A stretch of 64,000 bases of DNA from Denitrovibrio acetiphilus DSM 12809. Its GTDB lineage: Bacteria; Chrysiogenota; Deferribacteres; Deferribacterales; Geovibrionaceae. The stretch covers positions 2,170,001 to 2,234,000 of the forward strand of contig NC_013943.1 of NCBI RefSeq assembly GCF_000025725.1. Reading direction: 5' to 3'. This document shows positions 37,504 to 50,915 of the stretch, piece after piece. The notes below the pieces were generated by a model. That model did not search any database, had not been told where the DNA came from, and saw only the letters and a list, made by a program, of their open reading frames with translations. Within the stretch, counting starts at the first letter, position 1. Every line of letters begins with the position of its first letter. The position numbers and the translations under genes are program-made.

Positions 37504-38199
37504 ATGGAAATAAAAAAACCGGTTAACAGAACTCTGTCTATTCAGGTTGCTGACGAACTGGAGAAACAGATTGCAGCAGGAAACTGGAAAGTCGGCAGTA
37601 AAATACCAAGTGAAACTGAGCTGATGGAGCTGTTTGGTATAAGCCGCAACACACTTCGGGAAGCGATACGCTTTCTCGTCATCTCTGGTGTCTTAAAAAC
37701 AAAACCGGGTAACGGAACATTTATCATTACTGAAAGTGTTTTTAATGCTTCTATCAAAAAAAGGATGGAACACGAAAGCCTCAACTACATTGTTGAGACA
37801 AGAACAATTCTCGAACCGAAGATAATTGAAATGGCAACCAGAAGAGGGTCTGATAAAGAGATCGGAGAGCTTCGTAAATTACACAACCAACTTATAAGCA
37901 ATTACGAAAACTCATGGGAAAACTATGTGGATGCGGACACCAAATTTCACCGCCACATAGCCAGAATGTGCCATAACCCTTTTTTAGAAGACCTGTACCG
38001 GGCTATTGCAGAGTATCTGCCAGAATACATCATTGAAAATTTTCAAAAGTTTTGCGACGAAAACCTTGACCTGTTTCTCCATAAAGACCTTATAGATGCA
38101 ATCGAAAATAGAAACACTGAAAGAGCTGTGGAGCTAACAGAGTATATGCTTGAGCTTGAGATGGATATGGTCGAAAATGCTCCACCGCATACATCATAG
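37504..38199 (+). CDS. FadR-family (GntR/FCD) transcriptional regulator
   Basis: The 231-aa regulator has an N-terminal GntR winged helix (PSETELMELFGISRNTLREAIRFLV, then the GNGTFI wing) and an all-helical FCD ligand-binding domain with the metal or ligand-binding His and Asp of FHRHIARMCHNPFLEDL. FCD proteins usually sense organic acids. Its stop codon TAG is also the first base run of repeat copy B. Nearby candidate targets are the antiporter and esterase genes downstream on the other strand. Confidence 0.92.
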   Translation: MEIKKPVNRTLSIQVADELEKQIAAGNWKVGSKIPSETELMELFGISRNTLREAIRFLVISGVLKTKPGNGTFIITESVFNASIKKRMEHESLNYIVETRTILEPKIIEMATRRGSDKEIGELRKLHNQLISNYENSWENYVDADTKFHRHIARMCHNPFLEDLYRAIAEYLPEYIIENFQKFCDENLDLFLHKDLIDAIENRNTERAVELTEYMLELEMDMVENAPPHTS

Positions 38200-38449
38200 A
38201 TTCTCACGGGTAAAACCGTAGCTTTATTGCTTCGCACGTGCCAAACAAACGAATTTACAACTTCTTTGTAACAGCTAGAGCATATGCAAAATACGTCACT
38301 GCGAAACCCGCAGGGCTGTGGCAGTCTCGGCACTCGTTAGTTAATCCTGAGCTTCGTCATTACATTCCCCGCAATGACTTATAAGCTCGAAAGCTGTGAT
38401 TAGCTCATTCACCCAGACATAAATGCGTGGTATATGTCTTCGACTGCAT
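38197..38449 (-). repeat. Dispersed intergenic repeat, copy B (full length)
   Basis: About 250 bp closely matches copy C at 42096-42328, with shared blocks TATTGCTTCGCACGTG, AGCATATRCAAAATACGTCAC, GCAGGGCTGTGGCAGTCTC and GCAATGACTTATAAGCTC. It contains a hairpin (CTGC..AGCCC-GCA-GGGCT..GCAG) and a second (GTCATT/AATGAC). It begins within the stop codon of the FadR-type gene and lies after the terminator of the antiporter gene. Confidence 0.85.
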
Positions 38450-38496
38450 AAAAAAGAGACCGGACACATAGTGCCCAGCCTCAATAATTAACCGGT
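38450..38496 (-). terminator. Terminator of the esterase-antiporter operon
   Basis: On the minus strand GGGCAC-TAT-GTGTCC (38476-38462) nested within ACCGG...CCGGT is followed by CTCTTTTTT (to 38451). This is a good intrinsic terminator just after the antiporter stop. Confidence 0.7.
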
Positions 38497-38510
38497 GCTC
38501 ATAATTTTTT

Positions 38511-39953
38511 TTAAACTTTAGCACCGTTTGCTTTTATCATTTCGCCGGCCGGACCTTCAAACACACGCCCCCATCCGGTAAGAACCGCAACAGTCAGCAC
38601 AAAAAACAGACAAACGGTATAAACCATCCCTTTTGAAACCTCTAATGCCGTAAGCGGTTCAACAAAATCATAACCCTGAGTAAGCTGGACAGTCAAAAAA
38701 ATGTAGCAGCTTATAAAAGGTATGCTCACAGGCAGAGAGTTTGAGAATCCGTCCAGAAGATTTGCTCTTCTATACGGATGAATATTCTTTTCTTTGCCTA
38801 TGCGGTTGAAAATAGGTCCCATCGTAAGTATTGCAGGGTCCTGCGCACCGCCCATAAAGGTTGTAACGACAGTCATAGTCATACCAAGCATAAATTCCGC
38901 ACCTCTGGAGGTATTTGCAAGTCTGCTGCTGAGCATTTTTTCAATGACAAAATCAATAGCCCCTGCTGATTTCATAACTCCCATGATACCAAACATGGAT
39001 ATGATCAATATAACCACCCCGACCATACCTTTGATACCTGAATATAGAAATCCGCCCGGAGTGCCATTTACAACGCTGAATACATCCTTCGGAGTCAGTA
39101 TGCCAAACAAAAGGGCTACAGCCGTTCCTACGGTAAGCCCCACTGTCATAGCCCTGAAGATATTGCGTGTTCTGATGGAGATGTAAAGGGCAAGAGCAAC
39201 AGGAGCAAGCATAATAAGGCTTTTAGCATTCATGCTTTTTGCCAGTAGCTCTTCGGCTCCTTCCCCCAGAGAATATCCACCTGCAATGAAGTAATATATT
39301 ACGATCGATATAACTGCACTGACAAGAGCATACTTCACTCTGGTTGACACACATCCGCCAATGTCTGCCGTTCCTTTCCGGTTTTTAAATTCCTGCGTTG
39401 ATGCCGACAGAATTGTCGTATCCGATATCGGAGCGACGTTATCACCAAAAATAGCCCCTGCAAGAATCAGCCCTGCCATTATCGAAGGCTCACACCCAAG
39501 AAGTATTGAAGCCGGATAAAAAATAGGAAATCCGGTAAACAATGCAGCAAAAGATGACCCTGTTGCAGTCGAGATTATACACGTTGCCACAAATACAAAT
39601 ACGGCAAACATCCCCCCGTGCAGATTGATGCTGTGAGCAAGCCAGACAAATCCGCTTGAAATGTCACACGCCTTGATCAATGCACCAAACATCCCTACAA
39701 CAAAAAGTATAACCAAAACCGATACCGAGATAGGGTCTGCAATCCCCTTTGCCACCGCTTCCCAGTATTCGTTAAAATCCTTGCACAAAATCCCGCCGAT
39801 CACCAGTCCCACAAATGCCAGCGTGGAGAGGGCGATGAAATCAATCCCCTTCCAGATGACAAATAGCGAAAGCACCCCTAAACAGAAGATGATCAATGGT
39901 ATAAAAGCTGAAAAGATTCCGCCGCGGAAAGCTAGTTTGCTAGTTTCCTCCAT
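38511..39953 (-). CDS. NhaC-family Na+/H+ antiporter
   Basis: The 480-aa polytopic membrane protein has about 12 helices and NhaC-family features: SATGSSFAALFTGFPIFYPAS, GAIFGDNVAPISDTTILSAS (a conserved GDNxxPxSDTT motif) and TFMGGAQDPAILTMGP. Such carriers exchange Na+ for H+, or malate/lactate in the MleN subset. AGGAGGTAGGGT precedes the ATG. It overlaps the esterase gene by 14 bases, so the two are co-translated. Confidence 0.9.
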   Translation of the reverse strand: MEETSKLAFRGGIFSAFIPLIIFCLGVLSLFVIWKGIDFIALSTLAFVGLVIGGILCKDFNEYWEAVAKGIADPISVSVLVILFVVGMFGALIKACDISSGFVWLAHSINLHGGMFAVFVFVATCIISTATGSSFAALFTGFPIFYPASILLGCEPSIMAGLILAGAIFGDNVAPISDTTILSASTQEFKNRKGTADIGGCVSTRVKYALVSAVISIVIYYFIAGGYSLGEGAEELLAKSMNAKSLIMLAPVALALYISIRTRNIFRAMTVGLTVGTAVALLFGILTPKDVFSVVNGTPGGFLYSGIKGMVGVVILIISMFGIMGVMKSAGAIDFVIEKMLSSRLANTSRGAEFMLGMTMTVVTTFMGGAQDPAILTMGPIFNRIGKEKNIHPYRRANLLDGFSNSLPVSIPFISCYIFLTVQLTQGYDFVEPLTALEVSKGMVYTVCLFFVLTVAVLTGWGRVFEGPAGEMIKANGAKV

Positions 39954-40821
39954 ACCCTACCTCCTTTCTGATTGCTTTATTAGAACTATCTTGTGAATCC
40001 TCATCTATGTCAAAGAAACCGATATAATCACGGATGCTCTCGTCCCAGAAACCCCATTCATGAGTGCCTTTCCACTCATGAAATTCATAGGACATTTTAA
40101 GCTCATCCAGCAGCCTGCAATACTCGCGGTTAACATCAAAAACAAAATCATTTGTTCCGCAAGTCATCAAAATTTCCGGCAGGCAGATTTTCCGGTCTCC
40201 GGCTTTTCTCGTCAGCGCAAACAGATCCTCACTGTCTCTATATTTCAAATCTTCCCCAAACGCCCCGACACACCCCTGACGCAGTTCTTTCATCAGTTCA
40301 TAATCCTCATCATAAACCTTCGGTCTGCCTGGATCTTTCCATTCAGACAACTCTTTCAGATGCTCACGACTTCCGATCATTAAAGCGCCGGAAAATGAAG
40401 CACACTTTCCAAACTGGTCAGGAAATTTCATAGCAAGCTTAAGAGCTCCGTACCCCCCCATAGACAACCCGGCAATGAAGTAGCGTTCTCTCTCGGTACT
40501 TACATGAAACATCTTACCTAATATTTCTTTGAGCTCTATGGAGAGATAAGAGGCGTAGTCGTGCCCGCAGCTCATATCTGCATACATACTCATGTCGGCT
40601 TCCGGCATTATAACAGTCAGGTTATTTTTTTGCGCGTATCTTTCGACAGCAGTGAAACGGCTCCAGTAGGTATGATTCCCACCAAGTCCGTGTAAAAGAA
40701 TTAATGTTCTGGAGGGCTTATCCACTAAAAAGCGATGATTGTCATCATGAGGCAGATATATATGAAGCGGTGTCATTTTACTTAAATGATAGGAATATAT
40801 ATCTCCTCTGAAAAATCCCAT
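39940..40821 (-). CDS. Esterase of the esterase D/tributyrin-esterase type
   Basis: The alpha/beta-hydrolase is 293 aa from ATG 40821, which has AGGAG 8 bases upstream; the longer reading needs a GTG directly against that site. Motifs are the oxyanion segment LILLHGLGGNHTYW, the nucleophile elbow GLSMGGYGALK (catalytic Ser), Asp in TCGTNDFVFD and His in WKGTHEWGFWDES. Size and motifs fit S-formylglutathione hydrolase/esterase D relatives and acetyl-ester esterases. There is no signal peptide, so it is cytoplasmic. Its overlap with an NhaC-type antiporter suggests that the antiporter deals with the acid or Na+ produced, or shares a substrate; this is inference. Confidence 0.87.
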   Translation of the reverse strand: MGFFRGDIYSYHLSKMTPLHIYLPHDDNHRFLVDKPSRTLILLHGLGGNHTYWSRFTAVERYAQKNNLTVIMPEADMSMYADMSCGHDYASYLSIELKEILGKMFHVSTERERYFIAGLSMGGYGALKLAMKFPDQFGKCASFSGALMIGSREHLKELSEWKDPGRPKVYDEDYELMKELRQGCVGAFGEDLKYRDSEDLFALTRKAGDRKICLPEILMTCGTNDFVFDVNREYCRLLDELKMSYEFHEWKGTHEWGFWDESIRDYIGFFDIDEDSQDSSNKAIRKEVGYGGN

Positions 40822-41071
40822 TTCCAACACTCCTAATGTATAAACATAGGATGTTTATACCGCGACTTTTATTTTTTGTCAAATTGAATATAATCCTCCA
40901 AAGACCTAAGAGACGAGTTTTCTCATATACATGAGTATTATATCAAAAGAAAACCAAATACATTTTCAAAACGTCACTATTTATATGTACTGCTGGGGTA
41001 AAACTAAATGCATACCAGTGCAGGTAACGTGAATATGTGATTTATTATTTAGATAGGAGGATGTTGACAGT

Positions 41072-42582: not shown

Positions 42583-43335
42583 TTAACTTATCCTGTACAC
42601 TTTGCTATCGATAAAAACTGAGTCATTGCCATCAGAATCTTCCCAATCATATAAATTATCTAAAACATTCTTCCGTATAAAACGAACTTTTTTAACTTTT
42701 TTGTAGTTACCTTCTCTTTTCAATTCCAGCAAAAGTCTATTTACTGTTAGAGGAGTTGTATAGATAATCTGGGCTATCTCGCTATGGGTGAAATCAACGG
42801 GTAACCTGTACCAACCATTTTCAATACCCACCTCGAAGCGATTTATCAACCCTTTGAAAAAACAAAACATTCTATCCTTGGGAGTGCGGGCAACAATATT
42901 AGCAAATCCTTCCAGATCAGATTCAATGTCATACATCAAGCTGTAAATCATTTTCTTGTTAAAATCATTATTAGAAAACATATAGTCCCATGCGGTTTCA
43001 TGCGGAACCTCCAGAAAAACACAATCTCTAATTGCAGTCGCTGAAACGTTAGAAGTGCGGTCTGAAAGAAAAAAAGAATCACCGATCATTGAATTGTGAA
43101 AAATAACACTGATAGCTTTATCTTTAGTCGTTTTCTGCATAAGTATATTCTCACAATACTTACTCACTATTCCACTGACTATAAGGCTCAGGTATGGGTA
43201 AAATTCTTTACCTTTAAAAATCATCTCACCTTTCCGGTAATTCCTCAGCTTACCGTACTTCATGAAAAACTTTTTAACTGTCTGGTCAACAGCCGGTCTT
43301 ATCCACGGGACGCCATGGTAACGCAACCTCATCAT
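42583..43335 (-). CDS. Crp/Fnr-family transcriptional regulator
   Basis: The 250-aa protein has a cyclic-nucleotide-binding-type beta-roll (about 25-140, with FKGKEFYPYLSLIVSG and VIFHNSMIGDSFFLSDRTS), a dimer helix, then a winged helix (about 175-235) whose recognition helix reads HSEIAQIIYTTPLTVNRLLLELKREG. The four N-terminal Cys of FNR are absent (only isolated Cys residues occur), so it is not an oxygen-sensing FNR; the ligand is unknown. It is divergent from the flavoprotein-cytochrome-porin operon, and paired 19-bp sites lie in the shared upstream region. Confidence 0.9.
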   Translation of the reverse strand: MMRLRYHGVPWIRPAVDQTVKKFFMKYGKLRNYRKGEMIFKGKEFYPYLSLIVSGIVSKYCENILMQKTTKDKAISVIFHNSMIGDSFFLSDRTSNVSATAIRDCVFLEVPHETAWDYMFSNNDFNKKMIYSLMYDIESDLEGFANIVARTPKDRMFCFFKGLINRFEVGIENGWYRLPVDFTHSEIAQIIYTTPLTVNRLLLELKREGNYKKVKKVRFIRKNVLDNLYDWEDSDGNDSVFIDSKVYRIS

Positions 43336-43420: not shown

Positions 43421-43493
43421 TATATATCACCGGATACATATAAGCACCACTGATAACACAAAAATTCAAAACTGTACATATCACTAGATACAT
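43421..43493 (+). promoter_or_regulatory. Paired 19-bp operator candidates for the Crp-type regulator
   Basis: The pattern TAYATATCACYRGATACAT occurs at 43421-43439 and 43475-43493, 54 bases apart (about five helical turns). Each copy contains the inverted core TATC-N4-GATA, the geometry of Crp/Fnr family sites. The nearer copy is centred about 61 bases before the predicted start of the reductase operon, a classic class I activator position. Confidence 0.6.
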
Positions 43494-43608: not shown

Positions 43609-45114
43609 ATGAGAAAATCTTTATCAGTAATCGCATTCATCATGCTTACTGTCTGCAACCTATACGCAGCAGACAAGATCTACAATGTCGATGTATGCGT
43701 GGTCGGAGCAGGAGCAGGCGGAACAACAGCCGCAGTCTCTGCACAGGAAGCAGGACTCTCAACAGTATTACTTGAAAAAATGCCTTTCACCGGCGGCGCT
43801 GGGAACTTCATGGAAGGGTCATTTGCAGCCGAAAGTTTTATGCAGAAAAAAGCAGGTATAAAACTTACCAAAGAGCAGGCATTTAACAACATTATGCATT
43901 ACCATCACTGGATGCCAAATGCAAAACTAGTCAAAGCTTTTGTAGATGAATCATCCAAAACTATCCAATGGATATGGGATCACGGTGTACATTTTGAAGA
44001 AGTCAAAAGTGCATTCAAAGACAACCCTATCAGAACATGGCACATCTACCCCACAGCAGGTGCCTACTACATCCGAACAATGGTAAACACATACCTAGAC
44101 AACGGCGGCACTCTGCTTCTCGAAACACCAGGAAAGCAGCTTATTTTTGATAGGAATGGGAAAATAAGCGGCGTTCTCGCACAAAACCAGGATGGTGATC
44201 TGATTCAGATCAATGCTAAATACGTAATCCTGGCAACTGGCGGCTATGCTAACAACGTCGAAATGATCGTACAGTACGGCGGCCCGGAATCAGTTCCAAC
44301 TGGTCCTGAAGGGCGTGAAGGGGACGGTATCAATATGGCTCTCTCTGCCGGTGCAGCTCTTGACGGCATGGGTCCTCTCGAGGTTAACGGTGCAATGCTC
44401 ATCGCTCCCGGTGAAGCAATATGCAACGGCAACAACGCAGAACTCCGTGCGATGTTCCGCCAGTCGCTTCTTTATGTAAACCACAAAGGCGAACGTTTCT
44501 TCAACGAAGAAGTTACTATCGACTGGCCTATGGCAAGTAATGCCATAGCGCGTGGCGGAAAGTACACTTATGTTGTATTTGATGCTGATACTCTGAAAGA
44601 GTTCCAGACATCAGGCTACCTCAACCCATGCGGAAACTGGATTAAACGCGGTCAGCCTATGAAACGCTTTGACGAGCTTTTCCCTGAAAATGTCGCAAAA
44701 GGTTACGCCTACGAAGGTGCGACCCTTGAAGAAGTGGCAAAAAAGGCAGGAATGGATCCAGCAGTCCTCAACAAAACAGCCGCAGACATGACAAAATTTG
44801 CCAAAGAGGGTTATGACGAACAATTCGGTAAAAATAAACGTTTTATTCGTTCAGTTGCTAAAGGTCCGTTTTACATTCTGAAAGGTCAGATCCACCACCT
44901 CACAACACTTGGCGGAGCGAAAGTCACAGAGCATCTTCAGGTTGTTGACGAAAAAGAGCAAACAATACCTGGTCTTTACGCTATCGGACATGACGCAGGT
45001 GGTCTTTACGGAGATTCATATGACCTTACCATTGGTGAGGGCACATCAAGTGCTTTCGCTATCAATGGGGGCAGGCTCGCCGCAAAAGACATTATTAACA
45101 AAGTCAGCAAATAA
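43609..45114 (+). CDS. Periplasmic FAD-dependent reductase of the flavocytochrome c/fumarate reductase family
   Basis: The 501-aa protein has a Sec signal peptide (MRKSLSVIAFIMLTVCNLYA) and an FAD-binding domain with VCVVGAGAGGTTAAV near the start and the GLYAIGHDAGGLYGDS C-terminal FAD contact. It has the family catalytic elements RQSLLYVNHKGERFFNEE (Arg284 region) and IHHLTTLGGAKV (His429/His430). The fumarate-specific RLGGNA stretch is replaced by SYDLTIGEG (471 on), so a dicarboxylate Arg is missing. This suggests a different unsaturated acid as substrate (urocanate-, acrylate- or methacrylate-like enzymes share the plan). Electrons come from the tetraheme cytochrome encoded 17 bases downstream. 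AAAGGAGTT precedes the ATG. Confidence 0.9.
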   Translation: MRKSLSVIAFIMLTVCNLYAADKIYNVDVCVVGAGAGGTTAAVSAQEAGLSTVLLEKMPFTGGAGNFMEGSFAAESFMQKKAGIKLTKEQAFNNIMHYHHWMPNAKLVKAFVDESSKTIQWIWDHGVHFEEVKSAFKDNPIRTWHIYPTAGAYYIRTMVNTYLDNGGTLLLETPGKQLIFDRNGKISGVLAQNQDGDLIQINAKYVILATGGYANNVEMIVQYGGPESVPTGPEGREGDGINMALSAGAALDGMGPLEVNGAMLIAPGEAICNGNNAELRAMFRQSLLYVNHKGERFFNEEVTIDWPMASNAIARGGKYTYVVFDADTLKEFQTSGYLNPCGNWIKRGQPMKRFDELFPENVAKGYAYEGATLEEVAKKAGMDPAVLNKTAADMTKFAKEGYDEQFGKNKRFIRSVAKGPFYILKGQIHHLTTLGGAKVTEHLQVVDEKEQTIPGLYAIGHDAGGLYGDSYDLTIGEGTSSAFAINGGRLAAKDIINKVSK

Positions 45115-45131
45115 TCTCAACTGGAGGAAAA

Positions 45132-45515
45132 ATGAAACATTACATAGTAACACTGGTCGTGGTTATGCTGGCATCATTCAGCATGTGCGCATACGCCGCA
45201 GACAACTACAACCATAACCTTAAACCACACCACGATGAAGCAGGTCTTACCTGTGCAGACTGTCATCAGATTGAACGTCCTATAAAAGCAGCGTCTGCTG
45301 ATTCTTGTAAATCATGTCACTCAGATATTCGCAAGACTGGCAGGGTTGTAAAATTTACTGAGAGAAGAACAGGCAGAGTAATGGAATTAAATCCGCATGC
45401 ATCTCATGCCGGACCAATCAGATGTACTCTTTGCCATAGCGAACACAAAACATCCAAGCTTCTTTGTAACGATGGATGCCATGACCACCACACATGGGAT
45501 CTTATGGTTCCTTAG
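45132..45515 (+). CDS. Tetraheme cytochrome c (partner of the flavoprotein)
   Basis: The 127-aa periplasmic cytochrome has a signal peptide (to about AYA-AD) and four heme sites: CADCH, CKSCH, CTLCH and a fourth, CNDGCH, with three residues between the Cys pair instead of two. Several extra His residues (HNLKPHHDE and HASHAG) can serve as distal ligands. It matches the heme domain of flavocytochrome c3, or the separate small cytochrome of ArdAB/Mcc-type systems, encoded apart from the flavin subunit. CTGGAGGA precedes the ATG. It is followed by a terminator. Confidence 0.92.
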   Translation: MKHYIVTLVVVMLASFSMCAYAADNYNHNLKPHHDEAGLTCADCHQIERPIKAASADSCKSCHSDIRKTGRVVKFTERRTGRVMELNPHASHAGPIRCTLCHSEHKTSKLLCNDGCHDHHTWDLMVP

Positions 45516-45690: not shown

Positions 45691-46911
45691 ATGAGACTTT
45701 TATGTATTCTTATTTTTGTTATCATTACCAGTTTTGCCTCATATGCCGCCGACAACCTCGGACAAGCCTTTTCGCAAGGTACATTAAGAGGCGAATTAAG
45801 GACATTTTACTTTGACAGAGACTTCGATAGTTCTACAGAGAGAGAAGACTTTGCAACAGGAACTTTACTATACTACAAAACAGCACCGCTGCAAGGAATC
45901 AGTCTAGGGTTAGCATTTGCATCTTCCAACAATGTTGTCGTAGACAACGACAAGGATGTTTACGGACTTGTCGGCAGGGACAGTGACGGCAACCATGACA
46001 GCTATGCGAAATTGCAGGAATACTATATTCAGGGAGAATGGTTCAACACAGTGATCAAGTACGGAGCACAGGAAATATTCACCCCATTTGCTAATGTACA
46101 TGATATACGCATGACACCTAAAACATATAAAGGACTTTCTGTTATCAACAACAGCATTAACGGACTCACACTTTCAGGGTACTATCTCACAGGTTTCAGG
46201 GGTTGGAGTGACGAAAACTTCATGACAATGACAGAATCCGCAGGTTCTACCGAAGGTGACGACAACGCACTCTGGATAGGCGGTATTAAATATAAGATTC
46301 CAACTAAGATTGTAAAAGCTACAGTCGAGGGGTGGGAATACTATCTGGATGATGTTGTTCAGACTACATTCCTCAGAGCAAATGTTGACAAAACTTTTGG
46401 TGATTACAACCTTCAATTCACCCCTTCTTTTCTTACACAGAAGTCAAATGGTGACGAATATGCAGGAGACATAGACTCCACGCATTACGGATTCAACACA
46501 AGCGTTTCTGCATATGGTGTCAGCCTAACAGGATTCTATGCAAAAACAGAAGACGGCAGCATCTTTGCTCCATGGGGAGATGAGAAAGTTATCATTCAGC
46601 AGGTGCTCGCCGCAGATAGAGAAGACGAAAAAGCATATGCGGTTAAGCTGGCATACAATTTCAAAGCTCTTGGACTTGCCGGACTTGACGCATACGTTTT
46701 CCACAGCATTTATGACACACCTGAATCAGGTTCGACAGCGTCATCTGATTTTGACGAAACAGACTTTAGCCTTCAGTATAAATTCGATGAAAATTCTCCG
46801 CTGAAAGGGCTAAGTGTCAGAGTACGGTATGCAATAATAAACAAAGATACTGAAGAAGATTTTAACGACTTCCGTGTCTATATAAAATACAGCTTTGCCC
46901 TGCGCAAATAA
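45691..46911 (+). CDS. Outer-membrane porin (OprD/Opr-type), paralogue 1
   Basis: The 406-aa protein has a signal peptide (to YA-ADN) and a beta-barrel pattern of alternating residues and turns, ending in YIKYSFALRK with an aromatic near the C-terminus. It is clearly paralogous to the porin at 52843-54072: both share GTLxGELRTFYFxRDFD, LLYYKTAPLxGIS, YYIQGEWFxTVxKYGAQEI and APWGDxKVIIQQ. It probably gives the substrate of the adjacent reductase access to the periplasm. GGAGGAG precedes the ATG. A terminator-like hairpin separates it from the cytochrome gene. Confidence 0.88.
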   Translation: MRLLCILIFVIITSFASYAADNLGQAFSQGTLRGELRTFYFDRDFDSSTEREDFATGTLLYYKTAPLQGISLGLAFASSNNVVVDNDKDVYGLVGRDSDGNHDSYAKLQEYYIQGEWFNTVIKYGAQEIFTPFANVHDIRMTPKTYKGLSVINNSINGLTLSGYYLTGFRGWSDENFMTMTESAGSTEGDDNALWIGGIKYKIPTKIVKATVEGWEYYLDDVVQTTFLRANVDKTFGDYNLQFTPSFLTQKSNGDEYAGDIDSTHYGFNTSVSAYGVSLTGFYAKTEDGSIFAPWGDEKVIIQQVLAADREDEKAYAVKLAYNFKALGLAGLDAYVFHSIYDTPESGSTASSDFDETDFSLQYKFDENSPLKGLSVRVRYAIINKDTEEDFNDFRVYIKYSFALRK

Positions 46912-48239: not shown

Positions 48240-49514
48240 TTAATGCGCAGCAGCATTGTCTTTCAGAACGAATTTCAAGCGGAGTCCTTTGGCACAGACC
48301 CTCAGCCCACGATATCTGACCAGATAACTGACCCCTACAAGAGCAGCGGCAAACCCTGATACAGCACCAACGCCAAGCGCCCATCTGGGACCAAAAGTAT
48401 CAGCAACCCAGCCTACAAAAGGCGCACCAACCGGTTTGCTCCCCATAGCAATTGCAAACATGATGGCGATAACGCGACCACGCATAGCCGGATCAGTGGT
48501 AAGCTGTACAGCACTGTTCGCTGTAGTCGTAAAGACCTGCGCAGAAACACCTATAAGCACCAGAGCCGCAGCAAACAGTCCATAAGACGGAAGAAGAGCC
48601 GCAAGAGTAAGTCCCAAACCAAAAAACGCAGCCCCCTTAAACAGAGCCGTAATCTTAGGATCGTCCCTCCCTGCAACAAAAAGTGCGCCGGCAACTGAGC
48701 CAACAGCCATTACAGATGACAAAAAGCCAAATCCGCTTGCGCCAGTATGAAATACAGAAACGGACATGGTGGAAATAAATATCTGGAAATTCAGACCAAA
48801 AGTACCTATCAGAAAAAACATTATAAGTGCAGTTCTGAGATCAGGTCTTTTCCATATATAGCGAAAACCTTCAAGCATGCTCCCGCGTGTCTGAGTAACT
48901 TTCTCACTTATGAAAAGCTCGTCTAAATGTAAAAATGCCAGAGAGCAGAGAACTGCGGCAAAAGAGACAGCATTCAGAATAAAAACCCACCCAGATCCCA
49001 CTATTACTATAAGAACTCCGGCAATAGCGGGACCTATCATCCTTGCGGAATGAAATGACGTAGAGTTCAGCGCAACAGCATTTGAAAGACCTTTTTCTGA
49101 AACAAGGTCAGTAACAAATGTCTGTCTTGCCGGGACGTCAAAAGCGGTGGCACAACCAAGCAGAAAAGCAAATATATACATATGCCAGAGCTCAGCTTTT
49201 TCAGTAAGAGTAAGCACACCAAGCCCTAATGCAAGAATCCCCATAACAGCCTGAGTAGTAAGTAATAATTTTCGGCGGTTAAAACGGTCTGCCGCATATC
49301 CTGTGAGCGGAAGCAGAAATATCTGCGGACCGAACTGAAGAGCTGTAACTATCCCAACTGAGGTGGCATTGTTGTCTGTCAGCTGAGTGAGCACTACCCA
49401 ATCCTGAGCGGTTCTCTGCATCCACGTCCCAACGTTTGAAACAATAGCCCCCAAAGCCCACAGCCTGTAGTTATAATTTTTAAATGATCTGAACATCCAT
49501 TGTAATTTACTCAC
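48240..49514 (-). CDS. MFS transporter (EntS/MFS_3-like), start codon altered by an IS insertion
   Basis: This 424-aa, roughly 12-helix transporter shows WMQRTAQDWVVLTQLTD, GYAADRFNRRKLLL and GSVAGALFVAGRDDP segments typical of the EntS/MFS_3 branch of exporters. An IS element ends exactly at its first codon: the intact gene would begin ATGAGTAAA, and the last base of the IS plus TG of the old ATG now makes GTG. The native promoter and leader are cut off and lie beyond the IS at 51047 on. It may now be silent or run from the IS. A MarR gene upstream was probably its regulator. Confidence 0.88.
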   Translation of the reverse strand: MSKLQWMFRSFKNYNYRLWALGAIVSNVGTWMQRTAQDWVVLTQLTDNNATSVGIVTALQFGPQIFLLPLTGYAADRFNRRKLLLTTQAVMGILALGLGVLTLTEKAELWHMYIFAFLLGCATAFDVPARQTFVTDLVSEKGLSNAVALNSTSFHSARMIGPAIAGVLIVIVGSGWVFILNAVSFAAVLCSLAFLHLDELFISEKVTQTRGSMLEGFRYIWKRPDLRTALIMFFLIGTFGLNFQIFISTMSVSVFHTGASGFGFLSSVMAVGSVAGALFVAGRDDPKITALFKGAAFFGLGLTLAALLPSYGLFAAALVLIGVSAQVFTTTANSAVQLTTDPAMRGRVIAIMFAIAMGSKPVGAPFVGWVADTFGPRWALGVGAVSGFAAALVGVSYLVRYRGLRVCAKGLRLKFVLKDNAAAH

Positions 49515-50915
49515 TCAAGTTTCGCACCTTTGAAACATCAGATTCTGTATTGAAAGCCTTACCATTTCCTGTATTCCAGCCAATTTATTCATAAAAACTG
49601 TAAATGTTTCCTTTGCTCCATCAATTATTGATAATAATCGGTTTATGAATTTTTCCATAAACGCCAGAATATTCAGTTCTTCGACCTCATAACGCAGACC
49701 CTCATACAGACTGCCTTTGTGACGGAAATCACCATTTATCCGTTCCATATAGCTCAGGATGATAAACCTAACGAGCGATAGTGTTAGGAAGCAAATAGTA
49801 GCCTCAAAGGTTCTGGATTGATTTTTCCCAAAGAAAAGCTTGCTCTTGGCATCTTTAAACAACACTTCTACTGCCCAACGCTGACCATAGGTTTCAATTA
49901 TTTTTGCCGATGTCAAAGATGTATCCGTAGACAGTAGAATAATAGGCTTCTTTGATTTACTTTTCTCAGATGGCTGACAGAAGACCAGCTTAACCAGAGT
50001 TGAACCGAAAAAAGCATTGATGGAAGATACAGACACCCGATCTTTGCCAATTGTTACTGTTGCCTTAATCAAATCTGGAACAACACATTCCCATAAGCGT
50101 TTGGTTGAGTATACCTTGCCATTTACAGCAACAGTCAATGTCGGTGTAGTTTTAAGCATGGCAATCACGTCATAGCCTATCTCATTATAAATTGACGACA
50201 CCAGCCTCGGCATACAGTACCAGCTGTCAAACAGAACAGCCCCAGCATCCAGACCCTTCTGTTTCGCCCGTTTAAGCATTTCCTTTACCAGTGTTGGTTT
50301 GTCTTTTACTGCTTCCTGTCGACGATGCCACGCCAGCATCCGCTTATCCATTTCAATTTCTGTCGATTGTTTGAATACTTTTCTGCTGCTTCGCTGCAAA
50401 GCAAAATCTACAGGGACAAATGACGCACGATCACTCCAGCCAAGCACAACAGCACTGAAGCCTTTCACGCTTTTACCTTTGCTATGGTCAAACACCCATG
50501 ATACTTCTTCTATCTTTTTGCCGGCTTTCTGAATTACTGTGTCATCAATTACAAGAACACGCTGCTGCCAGCTGCTGAATGATTTGAAATATCTGATCAC
50601 ATTAAGCGATATATCCATCATAAAACGCCGCCAATTGATACTTGTACGTGTACTTAAACGATAAAAAACATCTTTACCGCCTAAATCAAATAGACTGTTC
50701 CGGCAATGGGAAACAAAATGGTGAACGCTCTTACCGAGAAAAGTCAGAAAAACTAAAGCCACAAGAATCGAAAACGGCTCGACGCCCTGATTCTTTGAAA
50801 TACCGCACCTATAGGCAATTGTACGCAGTTGCAAAGCCTTCATTACTCGGAATATCTCAAATTCTTTCCACAATGCCGCTTGTATTTCAGACTGCCATGA
50901 TTTATTCTCAAGCAT
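49515..50915 (-). CDS. IS4-family transposase
   Basis: The 466-aa DDE transposase has first catalytic Asp in VLVIDDTVIQKAG, second in AVLFDSWYC, and the C-terminal Y-(2)-R-(3)-E-(6)-K signature of IS4 enzymes reads YGQRWAVEVLFKDAK, so all catalytic residues are present. The stop codon lies inside the terminal inverted repeat. AAGGAG precedes the ATG, but this site sits in the 3' arm of a 14-bp inverted repeat (50914-50927 and 50970-50983). The pairing would mask the binding site and start codon in transcripts entering from outside. Confidence 0.95.
   Translation of the reverse strand: MLENKSWQSEIQAALWKEFEIFRVMKALQLRTIAYRCGISKNQGVEPFSILVALVFLTFLGKSVHHFVSHCRNSLFDLGGKDVFYRLSTRTSINWRRFMMDISLNVIRYFKSFSSWQQRVLVIDDTVIQKAGKKIEEVSWVFDHSKGKSVKGFSAVVLGWSDRASFVPVDFALQRSSRKVFKQSTEIEMDKRMLAWHRRQEAVKDKPTLVKEMLKRAKQKGLDAGAVLFDSWYCMPRLVSSIYNEIGYDVIAMLKTTPTLTVAVNGKVYSTKRLWECVVPDLIKATVTIGKDRVSVSSINAFFGSTLVKLVFCQPSEKSKSKKPIILLSTDTSLTSAKIIETYGQRWAVEVLFKDAKSKLFFGKNQSRTFEATICFLTLSLVRFIILSYMERINGDFRHKGSLYEGLRYEVEELNILAFMEKFINRLLSIIDGAKETFTVFMNKLAGIQEMVRLSIQNLMFQRCET

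Follow-up and report, generated by a model that had tools for sequence, protein, structure and literature searches.

A gene cassette that recurs in the genomes of the family of Denitrovibrio acetiphilus combines a regulator, a flavoprotein with tyrosine in the place of a fumarate-reductase arginine (hereafter Tyr type), a multiheme cytochrome, often an OprD-family porin, and an MFS transporter from a single clade; this repeated arrangement is new, and no description of an MFS-linked Tyr-type cassette was found in the open-licence papers searched. The copy described here lies in a window of 64,000 nucleotides (the whole stretch of DNA analyzed; NC_013943.1, positions 2,170,001 to 2,234,000) of the D. 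acetiphilus DSM 12809 genome, which is a single contig of 3,222,077 bases. We read it, with moderate confidence, as a cytochrome-fed periplasmic C=C reductase cassette in which Tyr471 of the flavoprotein would anchor the acceptor, probably an aromatic or carbonyl-conjugated alkene and not fumarate. The parts of the cassette, in window coordinates, are:

42583–43335, minus strand: divergent Crp/Fnr-like regulator (Pfam cNMP_binding and HTH_Crp_2), with divergent orthologues in loci L054 and L039
43425–43436, plus strand: operator-like inverted repeat TATC-N4-GATA, copy 1, read from the sequence
43479–43490, plus strand: operator-like inverted repeat, copy 2
43609–45114, plus strand: FAD flavoprotein reductase of the Tyr type, 501 aa, with a Sec-like N-terminus lacking a twin Arg
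44518–44520, plus strand: Ile304, aligned with the proton-donor Arg of fumarate reductases
44893–44898, plus strand: His429-His430, upstream of the catalytic-His column
45019–45021, plus strand: Tyr471, aligned with the second fumarate Arg
45132–45515, plus strand: tetraheme c-type cytochrome (Cytochrom_c3_2), 127 aa, homologous to the flavocytochrome c3 heme domain
45465–45482, plus strand: fourth heme site of the cytochrome, CNDGCH (CX3CH)
45691–46911, plus strand: OprD-family outer-membrane porin (Pfam OprD, 134 bits), with a homologue in L054 and none in L039
47009–48166, plus strand: MFS transporter (Pfam MFS_1) of the cassette-linked clade, reciprocally associated with Tyr-type flavoproteins

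Both genes of the flavoprotein–cytochrome pair described in the first-pass annotation of this DNA, with their reading frames, are borne out; they lie on the same strand with 17 bp between them. The N-terminus of the flavoprotein is hydrophobic and reads as a putative Sec signal, and the twin-Arg motif is absent from all 36 N-termini compared. A second MFS gene (MFS_3) occupies 48240–49514, and a DDE transposase (Pfam DDE_5 and DDE_Tnp_1; 49515–50915, minus strand) lies just beyond it, near the end of the cassette. At 37504–40830 the window also holds a GntR/FCD regulator, with a Na+/H+-antiporter-family gene and an esterase on the opposite strand, possibly a separate uptake unit. A PADLOC search gave a weak match only.

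The two TATC-N4-GATA sites lie 54 bp apart (43425 and 43479) in the divergent intergenic region. Orthologue L054 has both sites at the same spacing (5000 and 5054), and L039 has neither. Two or more matches to the pattern occurred in 8 of 100 shuffles, a figure that is not a fair test because counting began only after the pattern had been recognized in the sequence; such weight as the sites have comes from the repetition of the pair and its spacing in L054. Matches in a promoter and terminator scan were near chance.

For Fcc3-type enzymes we take the residue numbers to be Arg544 and His504, with HHTMGG as the segment of His504. Enzymes of the Fcc3/UrdA type hold the substrate carboxylate by Arg402/411, Arg544/560, and a histidine (PMC7921117). 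We aligned the flavoprotein (alignment A1) with 33 flavoproteins matching it at no less than 225 bits and at least 400 aa, plus three from other families, omitting a stop-broken paralogue in L060 and the locus L039, which is a copy of L047. The alignment confirms that SYDLTIGEG replaces the RLGGNA stretch of Arg-type enzymes, as noted at first pass, and places Tyr471 at the Fcc3 Arg544 column; this Tyr, together with Gly478, Tyr422, and His145, is identical in 36/36 aligned relatives. An earlier statement that the catalytic pair of Arg and His is retained fails for the Arg: pairwise, multiple, and profile–profile alignments all place Ile304 at the proton-donor column (Fcc3 Arg402, UrdA Arg411), where only one of the 36 relatives has Arg. 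Retention of the catalytic His is doubtful, as an ungapped profile alignment puts Leu431 at its column with His429-His430 two residues upstream, and a two-residue shift of the chain would be needed for the pair to take the catalytic role. The pair is found only in the three orthologues, and L059 has one His there. In favor of an equivalent His, phmmer pairs this HH with the catalytic His by opening a two-residue gap. Both substrate arginines are, by these alignments, absent across the clade.

These residues bear directly on the acceptor. A diverged fumarate reductase is scarcely credible, for although the fold is shared and Fcc3 is the top phmmer match, the columns of Fcc3 Arg402, Arg544, and His365 hold Ile, Tyr, and Asn, and membership was rejected on these residues. 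Nor does the locus encode a fumarate reductase that has lost one carboxylate clamp, as first suggested, since both arginines are missing clade-wide. The earlier view of a periplasmic flavoprotein/tetraheme-cytochrome pair for which fumarate is a very unlikely acceptor is upheld by the residues. Its proposal of a different alkene acid stands as to non-fumarate, but an acid becomes only one option, because both substrate arginines are absent across the clade and the Tyr is common to VprA and the ketosteroid dehydrogenases (KSTDs). An enoate reductase proper, acting on a monocarboxylic alkene acid (of the cinnamate, sorbate, or crotonate type) through a new anchor, for example Glu278/Arg280/Arg284, is a possibility that we regard as real but probably incorrect. 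The segment NAELRAMFRQS is unchanged among the three orthologues, and an OprD porin lies alongside. In at least one sibling cassette (L050) a GntR/FCD regulator takes the place of the Crp-like one; the ligands of this regulator class are organic acids, which would fit an enoate and counts against our preferred reading. However, both known substrate arginines are missing, and for VprA, which shows these substitutions too, the assigned substrate is not an acid (PMC10295242).

Pfam FAD_binding_2 matches the flavoprotein, only FAD/NAD-binding families being found and no FMN-binding domain. The top NCBIfam model is vinyl phenol reductase, at 343.8 bits and thus below its equivalog cut-off of 600, and the TIGR01813 flavocytochrome c subfamily likewise falls short (206.7 bits against a cut-off of 285.45). 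An AlphaFold model (pLDDT 90.6) gave Foldseek/VIA Z scores of 39.6–42.7 for UrdA, Fcc3, KSTD, and cyclohexanone dehydrogenase (all near 40–43), a ranking that recovers the fold but does not distinguish Arg-side from Tyr-side enzymes. A tree of 53 rows, built by a quick method with SH-aLRT only and containing several long branches, split eight RLGGNA-type rows from the other 45 (SH-aLRT 97); the Arg-type rows include UrdA and the Mrd homologue of D. acetiphilus, and VprA is placed with the Tyr-type rows. The Arg544 column also holds Tyr in VprA, two annotated KSTDs, and TcuA. By residues and tree the flavoprotein lies on the vinylphenol-reductase/ketosteroid-dehydrogenase (Tyr) side and not on the fumarate/urocanate/methacrylate (Arg) side. 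We consider it highly improbable that the protein is the methacrylate/acrylate reductase (Mrd/Mcc) of D. acetiphilus. A flavoprotein–multiheme cytochrome operon is indeed published for this species, with Tat motif RRGLLQ in the Mrd homologue (PMC4427408), but that homologue matches L072, a locus elsewhere in the genome that keeps RRD and RLGGNA and whose flavoprotein is 28% identical to that of the window over 26–470; Mrd membership was rejected on residues, leader, and separate locus.

In the cytochrome the motifs CADCH, CKSCH, CTLCH, and CNDGCH, the last of them noted at first pass, are confirmed within 45132–45515, and the protein exceeds the gathering score of PF14537 (Cytochrom_c3_2; 60.1 bits against 25). 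It aligns with the flavocytochrome c3 heme domain, the fourth site of which is CNECH where here it is CNDGCH. The suggestion that CX3CH is unusual for this group is contradicted by 23 aligned cytochromes (alignment A2; hand-chosen four-motif proteins, the window's included), in which the fourth site is CX3CH in 15, CX2CH in six, and CX4CH in two; it was accordingly dropped as a mark of novelty, and it is typical of the family. Seven-motif cytochromes were left out of A2, as were some near copies (in L051 and next to the first flavoprotein of L052) and the cytochromes of L080, L083, and L091 (CNECH, CNEGCH, CNYCH). Besides its four Cys-Cys-His sites the window cytochrome has other conserved His; because published surveys accept both CX3CH and CX4CH as heme sites (PMC10734462, PMC5566968), four covalent hemes would be expected. 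In L045, L046, L048, L056, L057, L058 (first flavoprotein), L059, L060, and L062 the partner of the Tyr-type flavoprotein is not a four-heme cytochrome but a longer one with 6–7 CXXCH motifs, and two of these longer cytochromes carry an extra CSEKCH.

Within 4.5 kb of Tyr-type flavoproteins lie a cytochrome homologue (34/34), an MFS homologue (29/34), an OprD homologue (14/34), and a Crp-like regulator (11/34), compared with 11/13, 3/13, 4/13, and 0/13 for 13 other flavoproteins, the queries being the window's own proteins and adjacent flavoproteins possibly sharing neighbors. The converse count covered 12 family genomes, with 34 Tyr-type flavoproteins (>200 bits; six of 40 matches scored below 200 bits and were not counted as Tyr type). 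The MFS clade has 32 members in these genomes (E up to 1e-15), 28 of them within 3 kb of a Tyr-type flavoprotein, where 0.70 would be expected under uniform placement, and 31 within 5.5 kb. Numbers of MFS and flavoprotein genes run in step from genome to genome (3/3, 2/3, 2/2, 7/7, 3/3, 1/1, 12/13, and 2/2), with none of either in four genomes at the thresholds used. D. acetiphilus itself has three Tyr-type flavoproteins with MFS partners, and a stop codon interrupts one of the three. The interrupted one is the paralogue in L060 (9648–11183; 1644683–1646146 in its own genome), which has one in-frame TAG and open MFS and multiheme cytochrome neighbors. The family genome G009 has an unusually large expansion, with 13 Tyr-type flavoproteins in about 2.9 Mb and MFS counterparts numbering 12. 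A scan of genome contigs returned one relative only. On a Rhizobium plasmid, a more distant relative likewise comes directly after an MFS gene.

Flavoprotein and MFS distances were correlated (rho 0.42 for 27 pairs, a value reached in 1/2000 permutations), and the correlation fell when close copies were removed (rho 0.26 for 16 pairs, 94/2000 as high; rho 0.17 for 12 pairs, 497/2000), so that co-diversification is not claimed. The MFS proteins retain a glycine/proline-rich segment like GLGPVCGG, and such segments are typical of antiporters. Tentatively, and with limited confidence, we suggest that these are plug-in respiration cassettes expanded in the family, and that a regulator, a Tyr-type flavoprotein, a multiheme cytochrome, and an MFS transporter of the dedicated clade belong to every one of them; the transporter would exchange the alkene and its reduced product across the inner membrane, tying periplasmic alkene reduction to uptake, and each copy would serve a different acceptor.

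In the preferred reading of the window locus, electrons from menaquinol would pass through a membrane quinol dehydrogenase to the small tetraheme cytochrome (45132–45515), which would reduce the FAD of the flavoprotein (43609–45114) for hydride transfer to an activated C=C bond. Of five NapC/NirT-family matches in the genome, four are over the cut-off, all unlinked to the locus, and such proteins could feed the cytochrome. The substrate would be held by Tyr471 and the main chain at invariant Gly478, in the manner of vinylphenol reductase and the ketosteroid dehydrogenases, and its carbonyl, phenol, or acid group would be polarized by them. With this anchor in place of the Arg/Arg/His clamp, the acceptor would probably be aromatic or carbonyl-conjugated, for example a vinylphenol-, hydroxycinnamate-, or enone-like alkene. 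The OprD porin could admit it through the outer membrane, the MFS transporter could carry substrate or product through the inner membrane, whether by taking up product, by exchange, or by efflux, and the Crp-like regulator may sense the acceptor. Against this scheme, the porin and the regulator each accompany only a minority of Tyr-type flavoproteins, flavoprotein and MFS distances agree weakly without close copies, and D. acetiphilus is reported not to grow on acceptors other than nitrate (PMC3035293).

Direction is the weakest step of the mechanism, since the Tyr side also includes the dehydrogenases TcuA and KSTD and the sequence does not fix direction. The flavoprotein could instead oxidize a saturated compound in the periplasm and pass electrons to the cytochrome, the MFS transporter importing the unsaturated product for growth. 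We think this unlikely, even though the Tyr is common to KSTD and TcuA and an MFS transporter suits a carbon source better than a spent acceptor. Against it, cytochromes of the c3-like type are usually low-potential donors. Published relatives with cytochrome partners, too, are reductases (PMC4427408, PMC8238504).

Read as a reductase, the cassette would probably enable an unsaturated compound other than fumarate to serve as electron acceptor in a nitrate-breathing marine bacterium. Nitrate is the sole acceptor reported to support growth of D. acetiphilus (PMC3035293), yet the genome holds three Tyr-type flavoproteins with MFS partners. A common MFS partner and a Tyr-type site give a handle for finding the compounds that such bacteria respire, and the fumarate-reductase label is misleading on Tyr-type proteins. 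As to the earlier idea of a new enoate respiration system, the pair is real, but separate flavoprotein–cytochrome pairs are already known, with 147 clusters counted across 108 genomes (PMC8238504); the MFS-linked surroundings are the new part.

Among characterized systems, VprA of Lactiplantibacillus plantarum (NF053717), represented in our comparisons by a plasmid gene that passes the VprA cut-off (783.8 bits), is 33% identical to the flavoprotein over its whole length, and the two share the loss of both arginines, the Tyr-type site, and the GD(S/T)Y and TWH motifs; unlike the window gene, the VprA-model gene starts at the FAD domain without a leader and has a LysR neighbor and no listed cytochrome. 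The Mrd/Mcc system of Geobacter sulfurreducens AM-1 likewise pairs a periplasmic flavoprotein with a separate multiheme cytochrome in one operon (PMC4427408), but it has a Tat signal, and its D. acetiphilus homologue L072 has an Arg-type site and a seven-heme partner. Methacrylate reductase and UrdA had both been named for comparison at first pass, and neither fits, the window flavoprotein having no Tat leader and no Arg at the UrdA Arg411 and Arg560 columns. With flavocytochrome c3 and UrdA it shares the fold, and its cytochrome is homologous to the Fcc3 heme domain, but flavin and heme parts are separate proteins and the FMN-binding domain of UrdA was not found by Pfam. KSTDs and TcuA have Tyr at the Tyr471 column and rank close in structure, but they are dehydrogenases, and the flavoprotein falls far below their NCBIfam cut-offs. 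Of the Tyr and Gly that serve as active-site residues in the FAD domain of 3-ketosteroid dehydrogenase, the Tyr aligns with Tyr471 in two KSTDs, and the spacing of the Gly differs. Finally, the Cgr1/Cgr2 digoxin reductase of Eggerthella lenta combines a flavoprotein that lacks fumarate-reductase residues, and has Tyr and Gly as in ketosteroid dehydrogenases, with an adjacent PF14537 cytochrome gene; it differs in that Cgr2 activity depends on [4Fe-4S], Cgr1 is membrane-anchored, and Y532 is not required (PMC5953540).
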